The position numbers and the translations under genes were made by a program. Source: Variovorax paradoxus (GTDB taxonomy: Bacteria > Pseudomonadota > Gammaproteobacteria > Burkholderiales > Burkholderiaceae_C). From it: a stretch of 64,000 nt of DNA. Location: assembly GCF_018614955.1 (NCBI RefSeq), contig NZ_JAGGNV010000053.1:1-64000 (forward strand). The letters are read 5' to 3'. Below, in pieces: positions 37,706-62,668 of the stretch (within the stretch, counting starts at the first letter, position 1; each line of letters opens with the position of its first letter). The notes beneath the pieces were generated by a model. It was not told where the DNA came from and ran no database searches. It saw only the letters and a program-made list of their open reading frames with translations.

Positions 37706-39271
37706 ATGATGCAAGACCCCGTACGCACCGGGATTGAGGGCCTGGACGAGGTGCTCTTGGGCGGGGTACAGCGGAACAACAACATCCTGGTCGAAGGTGC
37801 GCCAGGCGCCGGGAAGACCACGCTCGGCCTGGCTTTCATTCATGCAGGGGCGGCCCACTACAACGAACCGGGCGTGATCGTCTCGTTCGAGCTCGATGCC
37901 GAGAAGCTGTTGCGAGACGCCCGGGGTTTCGATTGGGATCTGCAACGGCTCATCGATGAGCGCAAGGTCAAAATCATTCAGACTTCGCCAGCGGTGCTGC
38001 TCAACGAGTTTCGTTCGACCGACGGGGCGTTCACCGCCGAACTGAAGGCGATTGGTGCGCGCAGGTTGATGATCGATGGCTTGACGCCGCTTCGTCTCTA
38101 TGCCGAGGCCAACGACAAGCCGTTTCGCGAGGATGTCCACTTGCTCATCGAGGGACTCACGCGGCTTGGCGTCACGACACTCGTCACCGCCGAGCGCGCT
38201 GAAACGAAGTTCGAAGCGCATGCACATGAGCGCTTCATTTTCGACACCATCATTTCGCTGACCCGTACCGAGGTCCGCCGCCGGGTGCACCGGACCCTGG
38301 CAGTCGTCAAGTCCCGCGGTCAGGACTTCATCAGCGGAAGCCACTCCATGCGCATCGAGCCCGGCGCAGGCATCCTCGTGTATCGCCGTGCCCAGTCGCG
38401 GCCCATGCTCGATCAGGACCAGCCCACCTCGACCGAGCGCGTGTCCGTGGGATCGGCCGCCCTGGACCTGATCATGGACGGCGGCATGTACGAGGGATCG
38501 ATCACGATGGTCACGGGCATCTCGGGCACCGGAAAGACCGTTCTGGGCGTGCAGTTCCTGACGTCGTCGGTGCTGGCTGGGCGGCGCGCCCTTCTGGTGA
38601 CTCTGGACGAACACCCGCGCCAGTTGATACGCAACGCCGCGAGTCTGGGCTTCGATCTGGAAGGCTTGGTGCAGCAGGGCTCTCTTTTCATCCACTACGA
38701 GTCGCCGCTGGAGTTGGAACTCGACGTGCATTTCGACCAGGTGGCGAAGCTGGTGGAAAAGGAACGCATTGACTGCATCGTCTTCGACTCGGTCGCCGTT
38801 TACGAGACGGCGAGCCCCGATCAGGCCTCCGACTTCCTCTATGCCCTTGCGGACTTCGTCAAAGGGCGGCTTGCGACGGCCTTCTTCAACTACGAAAGTC
38901 CCGAGCTGTTGGGCGTGTCGCAGATCAGTCAGGAACTCAAGGGATCGCACCTCGTGGACAACATCATTCTGCTGAGCTACGTGGAGATCTCCACGCGGCT
39001 GCGCCGAGCGATCGCGGTTCCGAAGGTTCGAGGCAGCAAGAACATCCAGACGACGCGCGAGTATGTGATCGGCGAAGGCGGTATCTCGCTGCTTGACGAA
39101 TCTAGCGTCGAGGGGGAGGACACGGCGCCCGTGCCGCAGTTGCCGTTCTCGTCCTACTACGGGCTGCTGGCCCGCTCGCCATCTCGCAAGAGCCCGGCGA
39201 TCGAGGACGCGGTCGCGCACGGGAAGTCGCTGCCGGATTCGCCCGAGCTCCCTCCCGAGACATCCCAGTGA
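37706..39271 (+). CDS. KaiC-like double RecA-domain ATPase
   Basis: A 521-residue protein with two KaiC/RadA-type domains. The first (about 1-235) has Walker A G-A-P-G-A-G-K-T-T (31-39) and S-F-E-L-D just after. The second (245-460) has Walker A G-I-S-G-T-G-K-T-V (271-279) and T-L-D-E-H. The region matching the KaiC autophosphorylation site reads G-S-H-L-V-D-N, so the serine (Ser414) remains but the neighbouring threonine is His. A 50-residue unstructured tail follows. The start uses AAAGGA upstream; ATG 37709 is an alternative. It overlaps the histidine kinase gene (ATGA), implying a joint signalling role. No KaiA or KaiB is present. Confidence 0.88.
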   Translation: MMQDPVRTGIEGLDEVLLGGVQRNNNILVEGAPGAGKTTLGLAFIHAGAAHYNEPGVIVSFELDAEKLLRDARGFDWDLQRLIDERKVKIIQTSPAVLLNEFRSTDGAFTAELKAIGARRLMIDGLTPLRLYAEANDKPFREDVHLLIEGLTRLGVTTLVTAERAETKFEAHAHERFIFDTIISLTRTEVRRRVHRTLAVVKSRGQDFISGSHSMRIEPGAGILVYRRAQSRPMLDQDQPTSTERVSVGSAALDLIMDGGMYEGSITMVTGISGTGKTVLGVQFLTSSVLAGRRALLVTLDEHPRQLIRNAASLGFDLEGLVQQGSLFIHYESPLELELDVHFDQVAKLVEKERIDCIVFDSVAVYETASPDQASDFLYALADFVKGRLATAFFNYESPELLGVSQISQELKGSHLVDNIILLSYVEISTRLRRAIAVPKVRGSKNIQTTREYVIGEGGISLLDESSVEGEDTAPVPQLPFSSYYGLLARSPSRKSPAIEDAVAHGKSLPDSPELPPETSQ

Positions 39272-40530
39272 ACGAGAGTGCCGGCTGCGGCGGCGGTCCG
39301 ACGGGGTTGGACTGGGAAGGCTGGCGCAGAGCGTTGGCGCGCTTCGCGGCGGCGACCGGCCTTTGCGTATCTGCCTACGATCAGGACTGCGAAAGGCAGG
39401 CTGGGCCGCTGGCCTCCTCCAAAGTTACGCGCCTGCTCGCCGACTCTGGCGTGTGGGACGCGGGCCGTTTGGGTGCCCGGATCGAACGGGATCTCGCCGC
39501 GCGGGTCTTGGCGAGTGGTGCGGTCGAACACGACAGCATAGAAGGCGAACTGCGAGTGCGCGCGGTTCCACTGACGATCGGGGGCCAGCTGCGTGGATCG
39601 ATTGTCTACGGATGGGCGTTAAACACCTTCGGGACGCCGCTGGGATGCGAACGAATCGCTCGTCAGCTCGGAGTCGACGGCCCGCGGCTTTGGGCAGAGG
39701 TACGCCTGGAGTCGCCCGTCGCCGATGCGCGCATGACGGTGTACACCGAGCTTCTCGAGACCATGATCGAATCGACCGTTCGCCATGCCGAGGCGGTCGA
39801 GCGCCTCCAGGAGCTCGGTCGCTTGCGCGAGGTGTTCCTCGCAGGCGTGTCGCACGAACTTCGCACGCCGTTGTCGGTGCTTGGCACGCGAATCGAACTC
39901 CTGCTGCGTGGCGCTCTCGACGATTCCGAGGCCATCAGGGCATCGCTGCTCAACATGAAGCATCATGTAAGGACCGAAGCCCGCCTGGTGGAGGACCTCA
40001 TCGAGGCGGCGCGTACCCGCACCGGGCAGTTGCACATCGAGAAGCAGCCCGCATCACTGCGAAGCATTCTCCAGACGGCCATTTCCGCCGTCCTACCGCA
40101 TGCTGAGGCCAAGCAGATTGCCCTTCTAGTGCCAGCGCTGGATGAGCTCGGCGAGCTGCCGATATTCGCCGATCCGCATCGCCTCCAGCAGGTGTTCTGG
40201 AACCTTCTGTCGAACGCCGTCAAGTTCACGCCGAGCGCAGGAAGCATTGAGGTGCGCGTGTCGCAGTACGCAAACATGTATGAGGTATCGGTCGTGGATT
40301 CGGGAAGCGGCATCGAAAAGTCGCTGCTTCCTCACGTGTTCGATCCGTTCACCAAACAGCACAATGCGAACGCGCAGGGATTGGGACTCGGGCTGTCCAT
40401 CGCTCGTCACATCATTGAGCAGCATGGCGGCGCGATCTGGGTGGAAAGTGGCGGGCGCAATGCGGGCGCGACGTTTCATGTGAGCTTGCCGTGTTCGTCG
40501 TCTTCACCCACAGGTGCCGCCTCCGAATAG
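39268..40530 (+). CDS. sensor histidine kinase coupled to the KaiC-like protein
   Basis: A 420-residue soluble kinase. The N-terminal 150 residues form a sensor-like region without membrane segments (L-R-V-R-A-V-P-L-T-I-G-G-Q-L-R-G resembles a PocR/GAF-like fold). A coiled linker precedes the H-box F-L-A-G-V-S-H-E-L-R-T-P-L with His196. The ATPase part has N-L-L-S-N-A-V-K-F-T-P, V-D-S-G-S-G-I and G-L-G-L-G-L-S-I-A-R. No receiver domain or response-regulator gene is adjacent; the nearest single-domain receiver is at 43641. Gene overlap suggests it reads the state of the KaiC-like ATPase, as SasA reads KaiC, but that is inference. Confidence 0.92.
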   Translation: MNESAGCGGGPTGLDWEGWRRALARFAAATGLCVSAYDQDCERQAGPLASSKVTRLLADSGVWDAGRLGARIERDLAARVLASGAVEHDSIEGELRVRAVPLTIGGQLRGSIVYGWALNTFGTPLGCERIARQLGVDGPRLWAEVRLESPVADARMTVYTELLETMIESTVRHAEAVERLQELGRLREVFLAGVSHELRTPLSVLGTRIELLLRGALDDSEAIRASLLNMKHHVRTEARLVEDLIEAARTRTGQLHIEKQPASLRSILQTAISAVLPHAEAKQIALLVPALDELGELPIFADPHRLQQVFWNLLSNAVKFTPSAGSIEVRVSQYANMYEVSVVDSGSGIEKSLLPHVFDPFTKQHNANAQGLGLGLSIARHIIEQHGGAIWVESGGRNAGATFHVSLPCSSSSPTGAASE

Positions 40531-43509: not shown

Positions 43510-43640
43510 AGCGACACGACTTCTTGGCCTTGAAGACCTAGCGTAGGCGCGACGATCAGGGCCGCAGTGGGCGACTTTCCTACTTGCCGACTCGCCTTAA
43601 GCTCACGAACGAGCGCGGCAACAGCCCTAACCTCTCGCCT

Positions 43641-44057
43641 GTGTCGCTCTCCACTTTCCTCGTCGAAGACAACCCCACCATTCGGGAGAATCTGATCCCG
43701 GCCATGGAAGAGATGGCCGACGTTCAGGTCGTGGGGTTTGCAGCATCAGAGCGCGAAGCTCGAGCGTGGCTAACGGAGCACGCAGCCGGTTGGGACCTGG
43801 CTGTGGTTGACCTATTTCTGTCAGAGGGATCGGGCCTTGGAATCGTTCGGGAGTGCGGAGGGCGCCGCGCCGACCAGCTCGTCGTAGTGTTAACAAACTA
43901 CTCCACCGGCGAAATGCGGAAACGCTGCTTGGCTCTCGGCGCGGATGCGATCTTTGACAAATCGAACGAGCTAGAAGCCTTTTTTGCCTACTGCCTGCGA
44001 GCTCACCAAGACAAGTTGCCGCAGATGGCGCGTCACCGGAGCCGCTCCACGTCCTGA
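43641..44057 (+). CDS. single-domain response regulator (copy 1)
   Basis: A 138-residue receiver domain without output domain. Acidic pair E9/D10 (F-L-V-E-D), phospho-acceptor Asp57 (L-A-V-V-D), T/S in V-L-T-N-Y-S and Lys in F-D-K-S-N-E are all present. I start at the GTG at 43641 since this aligns with the ATG of the paralogue at 61585 (M-S-T-K-T-F-L-V-E-D); a TTG at 43584 would add 19 unlikely residues. It probably accepts phosphate from a separate kinase, possibly the one at 39268. The following exported-protein gene has a paralogue next to copy 2 as well. Confidence 0.82.
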   Translation: MSLSTFLVEDNPTIRENLIPAMEEMADVQVVGFAASEREARAWLTEHAAGWDLAVVDLFLSEGSGLGIVRECGGRRADQLVVVLTNYSTGEMRKRCLALGADAIFDKSNELEAFFAYCLRAHQDKLPQMARHRSRSTS

Positions 44058-44418: not shown

Positions 44419-44799
44419 GTGAACTTCAATTCCTTCGCTAAGTGGGCTGCCGTCAGCTCCGTTGCAGCCGGTGCACTTTTCGCGGCGGCGTCAGCTAATG
44501 CCCAGGTGAACTGGTCAGTCGGCATCAGCGCTCCCGGCGTGGCGATCGGCGTTGCCGAGCCGGGCCCGGTGTACTACGAGCCAGCACCCGTCTACTCGCG
44601 CCCGGCACCAACCTACTACCAACCGGCTCCGCCTGCGTACTACGGTCCGCCTCCGGCGTATTACCGTCCGCCCCCGCCGGCGTACTACCGCCCGGCACCG
44701 GTGTATTACGGGCCGCCAGCGCCGGGCTACTACGGACCGCGGGAGCGTTGGCGTCATCGCCACCACCACCGTCGTGATTGGGACGATCGGGACGATTGA
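44419..44799 (+). CDS. exported Tyr/Pro-rich protein with His/Asp-rich tail (copy 1)
   Basis: A 126-residue protein. A signal peptide covers residues 1-28 (cut after A-S-A-N-A). The mature chain has S-V-G-I-S-A-P-G-V-A-I-G, then about ten repeats of the form P-x-Y-Y-x-P-x-P, and ends R-H-R-H-H-H-R-R-D-W-D-D-R-D-D. GTG at 44419 has GAGGAG five bases upstream. Similar Y-x-x-P-rich small exported proteins are common in betaproteobacteria without a known role. The acidic/His tail could bind metal. The copy at 62306 is closely related. Confidence 0.8.
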   Translation: MNFNSFAKWAAVSSVAAGALFAAASANAQVNWSVGISAPGVAIGVAEPGPVYYEPAPVYSRPAPTYYQPAPPAYYGPPPAYYRPPPPAYYRPAPVYYGPPAPGYYGPRERWRHRHHHRRDWDDRDD

Positions 44800-45177: not shown

Positions 45178-45817
45178 GCCGCATGACGGCTACACCGTGC
45201 TGGTGGGCGTCAATTCCCTGGTCAGCGAGATTCCGCACATCATCAAGATGCGCAACGACATGTCCAAGGAGATCAAACCCCTGGTCGAGCTCGGCCGCGG
45301 CGGCCTGGTGATGGTGGGCGGACCCGGGGTGCCGGCAAAGAACTTCGGCGAACTGATGAGCTGGATCAAGACCAACCCCGGCAAGGTCAGCTATGCCTCC
45401 TACACGCCCGGCACGGTCTCGCACGTGATCGGCCTGCAGCTCAACAAGGCCGCCGGCCTCGACATGACCCATGTCGGCTATAAGGGCTCCACGCCGGCGC
45501 TGACCGACGTCGTGGGCGGCCATGTGCCGCTCATGTTCGACGGCATGGCGACCTCGCTGCCGATGATCAAGTCGGGCAAGATCAAGGCCTTCGCCGTCAG
45601 CACTCCCAAGCGTTCGCCGCTGCTGCCCGAAGTGCCCACCTTCGCAGAGCTCGGTTATCCGCAGCTGGAGACCGTGGCGTGGATGGGCCTGTGGGTCAAG
45701 CCCGACGTGCCCGCCGCGATGCAGAACAGCATCCGCGAGGAGCTGAGCAAGTCCCTGAGCGCCGACTACCGACGCGTGGGCGAAGTGCTGAAGTCGATCG
45801 ACTTCAAGCCCGAGTGA
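45178..45817 (+). pseudogene. Bug-family receptor remnant
   Basis: The frame begins inside a Bug protein at D-G-Y-T-V-L-V-G and continues with V-G-Y-K-G-S-T-P-A-L, L-M-F-D-G-M-A-T-S and L-P-E-V-P-T-F-A-E-L. The normal 100-residue N-terminus with signal peptide is missing. Near the end, S-I-R-E-E-L is joined directly to S-L-S-A-D-Y-R-R-V-G-E-V-L, so about 25 residues are also deleted internally. Nonfunctional. Confidence 0.82.
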
Positions 45818-59193: not shown

Positions 59194-61101
59194 ATCGCGG
59201 TAGGGACGCCCATTGCTGGGCGCCCCCCGCACAGATCCGTACTTGCCCAATTCAGGCATACGGCTCCTACCTTGGGTGTTTGACGGCGAAGCGATGGTCC
59301 GGCCATGGATGCAGGATTCGGGGTGGCGGCAGCCAATGTGCAGCGATCTCCGCCATCCGCTCCCACGTCCGCTTGTCTTTCTGGCTGCGCCGCCTAAGCG
59401 TGCGCCGCCAAAGGTCCGTGACGTGGTGACGGAAGGCCCCGAGCGCCCGACTGTTCGTGGGCACTGCGTGGTACGCGAAGTAGCCCGTGACCACCGCCTT
59501 CAGCCATCTGCCCTGTTCGGGGATGGCGTCGTGCATGCGGGTCCGAAGCTGCACTTTGATTTCCTTGAGTCTTGCCCTCATGCGGTCGCCGCATGTTTTG
59601 CGCTGGAGCAGGAATGCTCCGCGCCGCGACTTTCCGCAAATGAACGTGAACCCGAGGAACTTGAAGGTCTCTGGCTTGCCTAACCCGCGCCGCTTTCGTC
59701 GTTCCGCCGCGAAGCGGCCGAACTCCAGCAGGCGGGTCTTTTCCCCATGAAGCTCGAGCGAGAACTGCTCGAACCTCGCTCGCATCGCATCCCAGAAGCG
59801 CCTCGCATCAGCTTCATGCTCGAAGCCGACCACGATGTCGTCGGCATAGCGCACGACAATCACGTTGCCGGTGGCTTCGCGCCTCCGCCATTGCTTGGCC
59901 CAGAGATCGAAGACGTAGTGCAGGTAGACGTTCGCGAGCAGCGGTGAGACCACTGCCCCCTGAGGTGTCCCCATCTCACTGACGCTCCAGTTCCCGTCTT
60001 CCAGGACGCCCGCCTTGAGCCACTTGCGCACAAGGCGGATGATGCGCTCGTCGCCGATCCGATGCTCTAGGAATCGGACCAGCCATTCCTGGCTGACCGA
60101 ATCGAAGAAGCCTCGGATGTCGGCGTCAAGTATCCAGTTCACACGGGTATCGCCGATCGCCACCGACAGTGCGTCCAACGCGTCATGCTGGCTGCGTCCG
60201 GGCCGGAACCCGTACGAGAAGCCGAGGAAGTCTTCCTCATAGATCGCATTGAGCACTGCGACGACCGCGCGCTGGACGATTTTGTCTTCCAGCGCGGCGA
60301 TTCCCAGCGGGCGCTGTTTGCCGTCCGGCTTCGGTATGAACCGCCGCCGGACGGGCAGTGCCCGGTAGCTGCCACTGTGGACCCTCGTGTGCAGTTCCTG
60401 GAGGTTGCCCTCCAGGCCCGCCTCGTAGTCCTTCCACGTCACGCCATCCACTCCGGGTGCGGCACGACGCTTGAGCGCCAGGAACGCATCCCGCAGCAGA
60501 TCGATTGTCACGTGGTGTAGCAGCGCGGTGAACTTGCCCTTCTTCCGCTGCCTTGCAGCTTGTCGTACACGGTCCAGCCCCTGTGACACGCTACCGCGGC
60601 TCTGCGTCCGTCGCGTGTGCGGTTGGCCCGTGTTCCCCTTGGTCCCCGCCCTTGGCTCCGCCCACTCCGCAGCCGGTTGCCCGGCCTTGTTCGCAGGCTT
60701 CATCGCTACTATGGCGGAGTCTGACTTCTCGGGTCTGTTCATCATCGGCTTCGGCTCCTCGCCTTCCCGATGCGGGCCAGCCACTGCGGCGGCTGGTCAG
60801 ACCCGAGATCTCCCGGTTCCCTTGCAAGGAGCGTGCGCACATGCCAGGTTCTCCGACCACGCCGGGTCGTCCAAGCGCTTGCGATGGCGCGCCCGGACGT
60901 ATGGCCTTCCGCGCGTACAACCGCGTCGGCACCCGGAATAAATTCTCTATCGTGGCTCAATGGCTGGCCTATGCGTACCCCTGTCAACGCTTCGCATCCC
61001 ACCTCGCGGTGTGACACGCATGACTCGGGGACAGCATGAATCGCTACTTCTTTACTGTCAGGGACTTGCACCCTTTACTCCTTGCCGGTCTCCCGGCGCA
61101 C
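59194..61101 (-). mobile_element. group II intron, apparently full-length (about 1.9 kb)
   Basis: Read on the minus strand, the intron begins with GTGCGCCGGG at 61101 (consensus GUGYG), followed soon by GGGTGCAAGTCCC as in domain I of bacterial introns. Downstream of the ORF, domain V reads GAGCCGTATGCC...GTACGGATC (about 59249-59215). Domain VI ends CTACCGCGAT at 59194, matching the usual ...AY end. The intron-encoded protein sits in domain IV. Exon flanks are the region before the response-regulator gene on one side and the methyltransferase leader on the other; no coding gene is clearly interrupted. Confidence 0.85.
59267..60745 (-). CDS. ltrA: group II intron reverse transcriptase/maturase
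   Basis: A 492-residue intron-encoded protein. The reverse transcriptase part (about 75-330) includes P-G-V-D-G-V-T-W, F-I-P-K-P-D-G-K-Q-R-P-L-G-I, G-F-R-P-G-R-S-Q-H, D-A-D-I-R-G-F-F-D and the catalytic V-R-Y-A-D-D-I-V-V. The maturase X domain follows (F-K-F-L-G-F-T-F). I see no HNH endonuclease domain at the end. ATG 60745 or 60742 both fit. Confidence 0.93.
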   Translation of the reverse strand: MMNRPEKSDSAIVAMKPANKAGQPAAEWAEPRAGTKGNTGQPHTRRTQSRGSVSQGLDRVRQAARQRKKGKFTALLHHVTIDLLRDAFLALKRRAAPGVDGVTWKDYEAGLEGNLQELHTRVHSGSYRALPVRRRFIPKPDGKQRPLGIAALEDKIVQRAVVAVLNAIYEEDFLGFSYGFRPGRSQHDALDALSVAIGDTRVNWILDADIRGFFDSVSQEWLVRFLEHRIGDERIIRLVRKWLKAGVLEDGNWSVSEMGTPQGAVVSPLLANVYLHYVFDLWAKQWRRREATGNVIVVRYADDIVVGFEHEADARRFWDAMRARFEQFSLELHGEKTRLLEFGRFAAERRKRRGLGKPETFKFLGFTFICGKSRRGAFLLQRKTCGDRMRARLKEIKVQLRTRMHDAIPEQGRWLKAVVTGYFAYHAVPTNSRALGAFRHHVTDLWRRTLRRRSQKDKRTWERMAEIAAHWLPPPRILHPWPDHRFAVKHPR

Positions 61102-62305: not shown

Positions 62306-62668
62306 GTGAATATTGATCGTTCTGCCGTCTTCAAATGGATTGCCGCAAGTGCTGTGGCAGCCGGCGCACTTTTCGCTGCAGCATCGGCCAACGCCGGTAC
62401 GAGTTGGTCAGTTGGCATCAGCGCACCGGGCGTGGCTATCGGCGTTGCCGAGCCCGGGCCGGTGTACTACGAACCCGCGCCCGTCTATTCGCGTCCTGCC
62501 CCGGTCTACTACGAACCGGCGCCTCCTGTGTACTACCGCCCGCCGCCGCCGGCCTACCGTCCGGCTCCGGTGTACTACGGTCCGCCGGCAGCGGTCTACT
62601 ACGGACCCGGCGAGCGCTGGCGCCATCGCCATCATCACCGTCGAGATTGGGACGATAGAGACGACTGA
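62306..62668 (+). CDS. exported Tyr/Pro-rich protein with His/Asp-rich tail (copy 2)
   Basis: A 120-residue paralogue of the protein at 44419. Signal peptide to A-S-A-N-A, then S-V-G-I-S-A-P-G-V-A-I-G-V-A-E and P-x-Y-Y repeats, ending in the same R-H-R-H-H-H-R-R-D-W-D-D-R-D-D tail. GTG 62306 follows TGGAG by six bases. It has one or two repeat units fewer than copy 1. Role unknown; envelope location is inferred from the signal peptide. Confidence 0.8.
   Translation: MNIDRSAVFKWIAASAVAAGALFAAASANAGTSWSVGISAPGVAIGVAEPGPVYYEPAPVYSRPAPVYYEPAPPVYYRPPPPAYRPAPVYYGPPAAVYYGPGERWRHRHHHRRDWDDRDD

Follow-up and report, generated by a model that had tools for sequence, protein, structure and literature searches.

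A KaiC-family ATPase gene that overlaps a PocR-like histidine kinase gene in Variovorax paradoxus, a candidate two-gene signalling unit

What does a KaiC-like ATPase do in a betaproteobacterium that has neither KaiA nor KaiB, and does the histidine kinase encoded directly behind it belong to the same pathway? These questions are raised by a stretch of 64,000 nucleotides of Variovorax paradoxus (positions 1 to 64,000 of contig NZ_JAGGNV010000053.1, assembly GCF_018614955.1), hereafter the window, for which an initial annotation had proposed a KaiC-SasA-like pair that might be a timer, a stress sensor or an energy sensor rather than a clock. The kaiC-like gene lies on the forward strand at 37706-39271 and encodes a 521-residue double KaiC ATPase, as judged from its open reading frame (ORF), its match to PF06745 (two stretches covered, 292.6 bits in a profile search) and the purifying selection on it; the two RecA-like KaiC domains, each with a Walker A motif, place it in the KaiC ATPase family. 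The second gene (39268-40530, forward strand) has a GTG start and encodes a soluble histidine kinase of 420 residues with no receiver domain match. The four bases GTGA (39268-39271) are shared by the kaiC stop and the kinase start, as had been annotated, so that the locus has the arrangement of a KaiC-kinase module, with kaiC and then directly a kinase gene. We consider it rather probable that the products form a two-protein cytosolic signalling module in which the KaiC-family ATPase works with the co-encoded kinase.

This arrangement was found to be constant among relatives. A contig scan of the species collection, a search limited to close relatives, placed the kinase directly 3′ of kaiC in 13/13 loci, one kinase being cut by the contig end. 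With loci from whole-genome searches added, the close set (KaiC of at least 70% identity) comprised 50 rows with 28 distinct proteins, one of them a fragment, and the −4 overlap was present in all 50 rows (28/28 distinct KaiC proteins). It may be noted that the overlap is not universal, as in a 40% relative (genome G173) the kinase begins 7 bases past kaiC. KaiC and the N-terminal domain of the kinase were also searched separately in three samples of genomes that overlap by a few genomes. In the genus sample KaiC was present in 4/61 genomes and the kinase domain in the same 4, at six places each with adjacent coordinates (one of the six KaiC places consists of two pieces). Identical genome lists for both were again obtained in the order sample (4/399) and in the family of genome G353 (17/145), and neither gene was seen alone, which is what the co-occurrence check suggested in the initial annotation would give for a true pair. 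In the phylum sample the kinase N-terminal domain was found in its own genome only (1/397, with at most 9 candidates per genome scored and KaiC not searched). Since every sampled genome with one of the genes also had the other, they are probably one signalling unit; the overlap and the identical lists thus agree with the earlier reading of one functional unit, with co-occurrence as its basis and contact between the proteins presumed.

The genes may also be together only through joint movement, that is, be co-transported and functionally separate. This would be in line with the patchy presence of the pair (4/61 genus genomes), with flanks that differ between loci and with copies on two Variovorax plasmids. 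A KaiC relative at E 1e-20 was found in 233 plasmid records, of which just 2 reach at least 90% identity and carry the pair: a 208-kb plasmid of Variovorax sp. WDL1, classed as mobilizable, and a 938-kb plasmid of V. boronicumulans, classed as non-mobilizable. Yet the overlap is invariant in close relatives, the two genes are under parallel selection, no solo copies were seen in the samples and a broken-looking kinase beside a full-length KaiC occurs on one plasmid only, so that we regard functionally separate genes as very improbable. The ratio of nonsynonymous to synonymous divergence (dN/dS) ranges from 0.05 to 0.07 for KaiC and from 0.15 to 0.17 for the kinase (six pairwise comparisons, four loci), with 0.16-0.24 for the kinase N-terminal domain. 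Gene trees of 29 rows agree on 8 of the 9 groups starred for KaiC, and no contradiction between starred groups was seen; G005 with G008, the ninth, is not recovered for the kinase, where G005 pairs with WDL1 without support. The purifying selection and the largely agreeing trees point to a real two-gene module. Also, clustering of the genes around 21 loci, called with a rough gene caller that missed one true kinase, gave no further gene shared by their flanks, and the unit would therefore consist of two genes.

The residues of the ATPase bear on whether it could keep time. The Walker A motif of the first ATPase domain (CI) is GAPGAGKT (37796-37819, residues 31-38), with GKT in 49/50 close rows (the region is missing from the remaining one, a fragment), and that of the second domain (CII) is GISGTGKT (38516-38539, residues 271-278); both are intact in the alignment of the 50 close rows, apart from the CI part missing from the fragment. 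At the CI catalytic Glu-Glu position, which we take to be E77-E78 in Synechococcus elongatus numbering, we found E62-L63 (37889-37894), in which the first Glu is retained (49/50 close rows, the remaining row being a fragment without CI motifs) and the second is Leu. The CII position, presumably E318-E319, has D301-E302 (38606-38611), where Asp replaces the first Glu, and this Asp-Glu is found in 50/50 close rows (28 distinct proteins). At the phosphorylation positions, assumed here to be S431 and T432 in the same numbering, alignment to solved KaiC chains gave Ser414-His415 (38945-38950), again in 50/50 close rows, so that the Ser is kept and His stands for Thr as first annotated. Two adjacent phosphorylatable CII residues, as in a clock KaiC, are therefore not present. 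Scores against the clock KaiC equivalog models also missed the cut-offs (226.8 vs 546.25 bits for TIGR02655 and 312.4 vs 408 for NF006799).

Profiles of KaiA (PF07688) and KaiB (PF07689) gave no match in the whole genome of the strain, with a positive Synechococcus control, in agreement with what had been claimed for the window pair, and KaiB is absent from 19/22 carrier genomes. A two-site phosphorylation clock is thus unlikely. To this extent the wording "rather than a clock" is justified by the absent KaiA and KaiB, the single phosphorylatable residue and the missed equivalog cut-offs. The loss of the second phosphorylation residue and the CII Asp for Glu make it probable that the KaiC acts as a switch or scaffold driven by ATP, not as an oscillator. 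An hourglass timer, in which the kinase reads a slow KaiC autophosphorylation or ATPase cycle (the proposal made for Rta_04330/Rta_04340 of Ramlibacter), would have the same two-gene arrangement without KaiA and KaiB and could draw on the intact Walker A in both ATPase domains; with only one phosphorylatable residue of two left and Asp for the CII catalytic Glu in 50/50 rows, and with KaiB absent from most carriers, we find it improbable. The alignment also shows a conserved C-terminal tail of about 18 residues (39143-39196, residues 480-497), a candidate docking segment for the kinase, which is a guess from its conservation.

Turning to the kinase, the profile search matched a HisKA domain (39826-40023, residues 187-252) and a HATPase_c domain (40171-40494, residues 302-409), both above the cut-off. 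The phospho-acceptor His196 (codon 39853-39855) sits in SHELRTP and the N, G1 and G2 motifs are all present, which makes it a HisKA-type sensor kinase; the same search gave no receiver domain in the 420 residues. No strongly hydrophobic stretch was found, the best 19-residue Kyte-Doolittle mean being 1.2 in KaiC and 1.2 in the kinase (no dedicated membrane predictor was run), and the claim that the kinase has no membrane segment is consistent with this. The name SasA-like fared differently. The kinase resembles cyanobacterial SasA in being a soluble histidine kinase that would read KaiC, but it differs in its N-terminal domain, which has no KaiB match and is PocR-like instead: the KaiB profile PF07689 had no match at E up to 0.5 in 13/13 kinases scanned, and PRK09303, which we take to be the SasA-type model, aligns with the kinase core only, from its position 135 on. 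Therefore we keep "KaiC-kinase pair", as given by the ORFs and domains, and reject "SasA-like" on sequence. Outside cyanobacteria, SasA homologues have no KaiB-like domain according to PMC5520375.

The input domain itself (39301-39783, forward strand) has only a weak likeness to PocR. PF10114 scored 16.0 bits against the window kinase, below the gathering score of 23.9, and weak matches at E up to 0.5 were obtained in 6/13 member kinases, the best at 1.1e-4; the kinase of the 40% relative in G173 reached 23.7 bits vs the cut-off of 23.9. On modelling the domain alone, we obtained a mean predicted local distance difference test (pLDDT) score of 90.1 and a profilin-type (GAF/PAS/roadblock) fold of a helix, two strands, two helices, three strands and three helices. 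Foldseek with this model gave nothing under 0.001, its weak matches including GAF-type sensor domains, and the 50 rows listed by VIA-align (Z 9-11) were tied among IclR effector, MglB/roadblock, CodY GAF and similar domains. KaiB and SasA are absent among the matches listed by both programs, lists that do not exclude either, and with the full-length kinase model the matches were taken up by kinase cores. The model therefore suggests the broad GAF/PAS/roadblock class, as a fold class with no function implied.

Two ways of working come from this domain. It may bind KaiC directly, so that the state of the ATPase gates the kinase, with neither a fold switch of the KaiB type nor phosphorylation at two sites; the pair would then be a self-contained and horizontally carried sensor of energy or ATP turnover for two-component output. 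We put this forward tentatively. The fold of the model is similar to that of roadblock/GAF modules, and certain of these, such as MglB, act on NTPases. The domain may otherwise bind a small molecule, with the kinase or a receiver controlling the ATPase as an effector. The weak structural matches to GAF-type sensors speak for such a ligand-sensing kinase, but a free-standing one would be expected without KaiC too and none was seen in the 61-, 399- and 145-genome samples; we regard this reading as rather improbable.

In the two-protein module that we favour, the double-domain KaiC ATPase would bind and hydrolyse ATP, probably as a ring, and the PocR-like domain would be the likeliest reader of the ATPase state or of a ligand. 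The kinase would autophosphorylate on His196 and pass the phosphate to a receiver encoded elsewhere, because it has no receiver of its own, unlike the kinases of two examined KaiC pairs that are more distant. We infer that the two proteins touch, that KaiC forms a ring and in which direction signalling runs, and likewise the nature of signal and output. Several points weigh against this reading. Operon mates can share a pathway without touching, and a small molecule could be what the N-terminal domain senses, while KaiC acts elsewhere. The KaiC thresholds of the co-occurrence samples were strict (90% identity in the 61-genome sample and E 1e-60 in the 399 and 145), the kinase candidates scored per genome were 59, 9 and 24, respectively, and the N-terminal domain profile was built from kinases adjoining window-type KaiC; with such partial scoring and a profile made from KaiC neighbours, remote relatives without a partner may have escaped detection. 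Agreement between the trees was judged by eye only. Also, KaiB is present in 3/22 carriers (G173, G855 and G944), on contigs other than that of the pair.

As for the receiver, the initial annotation had named two receiver-only proteins of the window, at 43641 and 61214, as possible partners, and both exist. The first (43584-44057, forward strand, profile match) is closest, among the matches listed (68%), to a receiver about 600 bases upstream of a second kaiC copy in the same genome (contig C2), which is a modest sequence hint that it may be the partner of the kinase. In the strain's genome the family of these receivers has 10 matches, two of them neighbouring pieces on C103, and each of the genus genomes searched (21/21) has one or more. 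Receiver 61214, one of about ten such paralogues, is therefore unspecific and was dropped as a specific partner. A receiver beside the pair is not a rule either: in a scan of 20 loci including the window, receiver-only ORFs near the pair were found only in the window, C2, G008 and G173, the one in G008 having 37% identity and lying on the strand opposite to the pair. Of the loci scanned, L010 and L060 coincide, and L013, L015 and L016 are short; six receivers went into the profile, including some later recovered by the same scan. Apart from this, a Tyr/Pro-rich coding stretch is repeated at 44461-44799 and 62354-62668 of the window (77.8% identity), each copy near one of the two receivers, which are on opposite strands.

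The genome of the strain has further pairs. The second copy (C2:30997-34800; L056 8977-12813) has 91% identity in KaiC and 79% in the kinase, and its synonymous divergence from the window copy of about 0.9 indicates that this copy is not recent. Beside it, in addition to the upstream receiver gene, are PRC-barrel, Ysc84 and DUF2383 genes. DUF2383 (PA2169-type) genes are near 5 of the 9 Variovorax copies examined (L009 9453, L010 8990, L058 12875, L056 3282 and L114 13389) and none is in the window, the nine copies being those of the window, C2, JS1663, G005, G008, WDL1 (two) and V. boronicumulans (two). This link is too weak to suggest a stress role. A CsbD gene also adjoins the WDL1 plasmid copy. 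In that plasmid the kinase looks broken, as a piece matching residues 1-292 and a piece matching 263-418 (63% identity) are separated by an IS481 transposase; the two overlapping pieces lie around the transposase in plasmid 4 (L114 10563-12854), beside a full-length KaiC. The WDL1 KaiC is in two pieces on the draft contig L017 and full-length in the plasmid record.

A third pair (C37:120150; L057 8100-11140) is of another kind, with a KaiC of about 30% identity and Ser-Tyr at the site, whose gene overlaps by four bases that of a hybrid histidine kinase with a C-terminal receiver. In the genus sample, 54/61 genomes have a KaiC match at E 1e-20, and every one of these 54 includes one at 26-31% identity. 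In 25 of the 26 distant KaiC loci L026-L051 a long ORF starts −4 to +10 bases from the kaiC stop (22 at −4), these ORFs not being confirmed individually as kinases; L026 (genome G047) is the sole locus without one directly behind kaiC. Among 27 distant KaiC rows, 26 have Ser-Tyr and one has Ser-Ser, the latter with Glu-Glu in both domains. The 40% relative in G173 also has Ser-Ser, and there KaiC, a PocR-like hybrid kinase and a receiver gene are found in succession. The window pair is thus the rare type, with a PocR-like kinase without receiver, and the C37 type is common in the genus.

Some of these arrangements have been described before. KaiC-kinase operons without KaiA and KaiB in a betaproteobacterium, with an hourglass proposed, were reported in 2011 (PMC3164672), where site variants including SH are listed in the legend of Fig. 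S6. The pair Rta_04330/Rta_04340 of Ramlibacter tataouinensis is like ours in having a double-domain KaiC and then a histidine kinase, in a betaproteobacterium without KaiA and KaiB. It differs in that its KaiC has two phosphorylatable residues against one in the window, and its kinase has another N-terminal domain, RtaNt, which the authors liken to a receiver domain, SasA and KaiB (PMC3164672). The nearest to it in the strain's genome is the C37 pair, with Ser-Tyr and a kinase with a C-terminal receiver, likened by description only, and this type would fit the "second context" of PMC3164672. The "third context" group of the same paper shares with the window type one phosphorylatable residue as a rule and signalling genes nearby, but its arrangement is heterogeneous, whereas the window type has a constant partner. 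KaiC-like ATPases are also seen as archaeal signalling hubs (Makarova 2017, cited in PMC5847659), a likeness in that the KaiC family goes with two-component parts; these differ in being archaeal, with domain fusions and other architectures (PMC5847659).

A literature search, which reached few subscription papers, gave no description of a KaiC paired with a PocR-like kinase. What is new here would be the PocR-like partner without receiver domain, the co-occurrence and the plasmid carriage, the KaiC-kinase pair without KaiA and KaiB being known since 2011 (PMC3164672). Non-cyanobacterial Kai proteins are described as without a settled role in PMC5520375.

Elsewhere in the window, a reverse transcriptase encoded on the minus strand (59267-60784) shows weak similarity to a group II intron maturase. 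A TctC-type receptor ORF (45197-45817) matches only positions 48-230 of the 274 of the profile, and its N-terminal part therefore appears to be missing.

To our knowledge, the function of many KaiC relatives from organisms other than cyanobacteria is unsettled. By its title, work by Terrettaz in 2023 reportedly ties KaiC-like proteins to stress resistance in Pseudomonas, and work by Loza-Correa in 2014 is said to deal with the Legionella kai operon and KaiC relatives tied to stress; both are cited in PMC11832031 and, going by these titles only, they resemble the window type in coming from non-photosynthetic proteobacteria and having a non-clock role. A two-gene module that is free of KaiB in most carriers and comes from cultured soil bacteria is one in which signalling from KaiC to a kinase could be rebuilt in a tube, and the rebuilt module would tell what role KaiC has had before, or besides, clocks.

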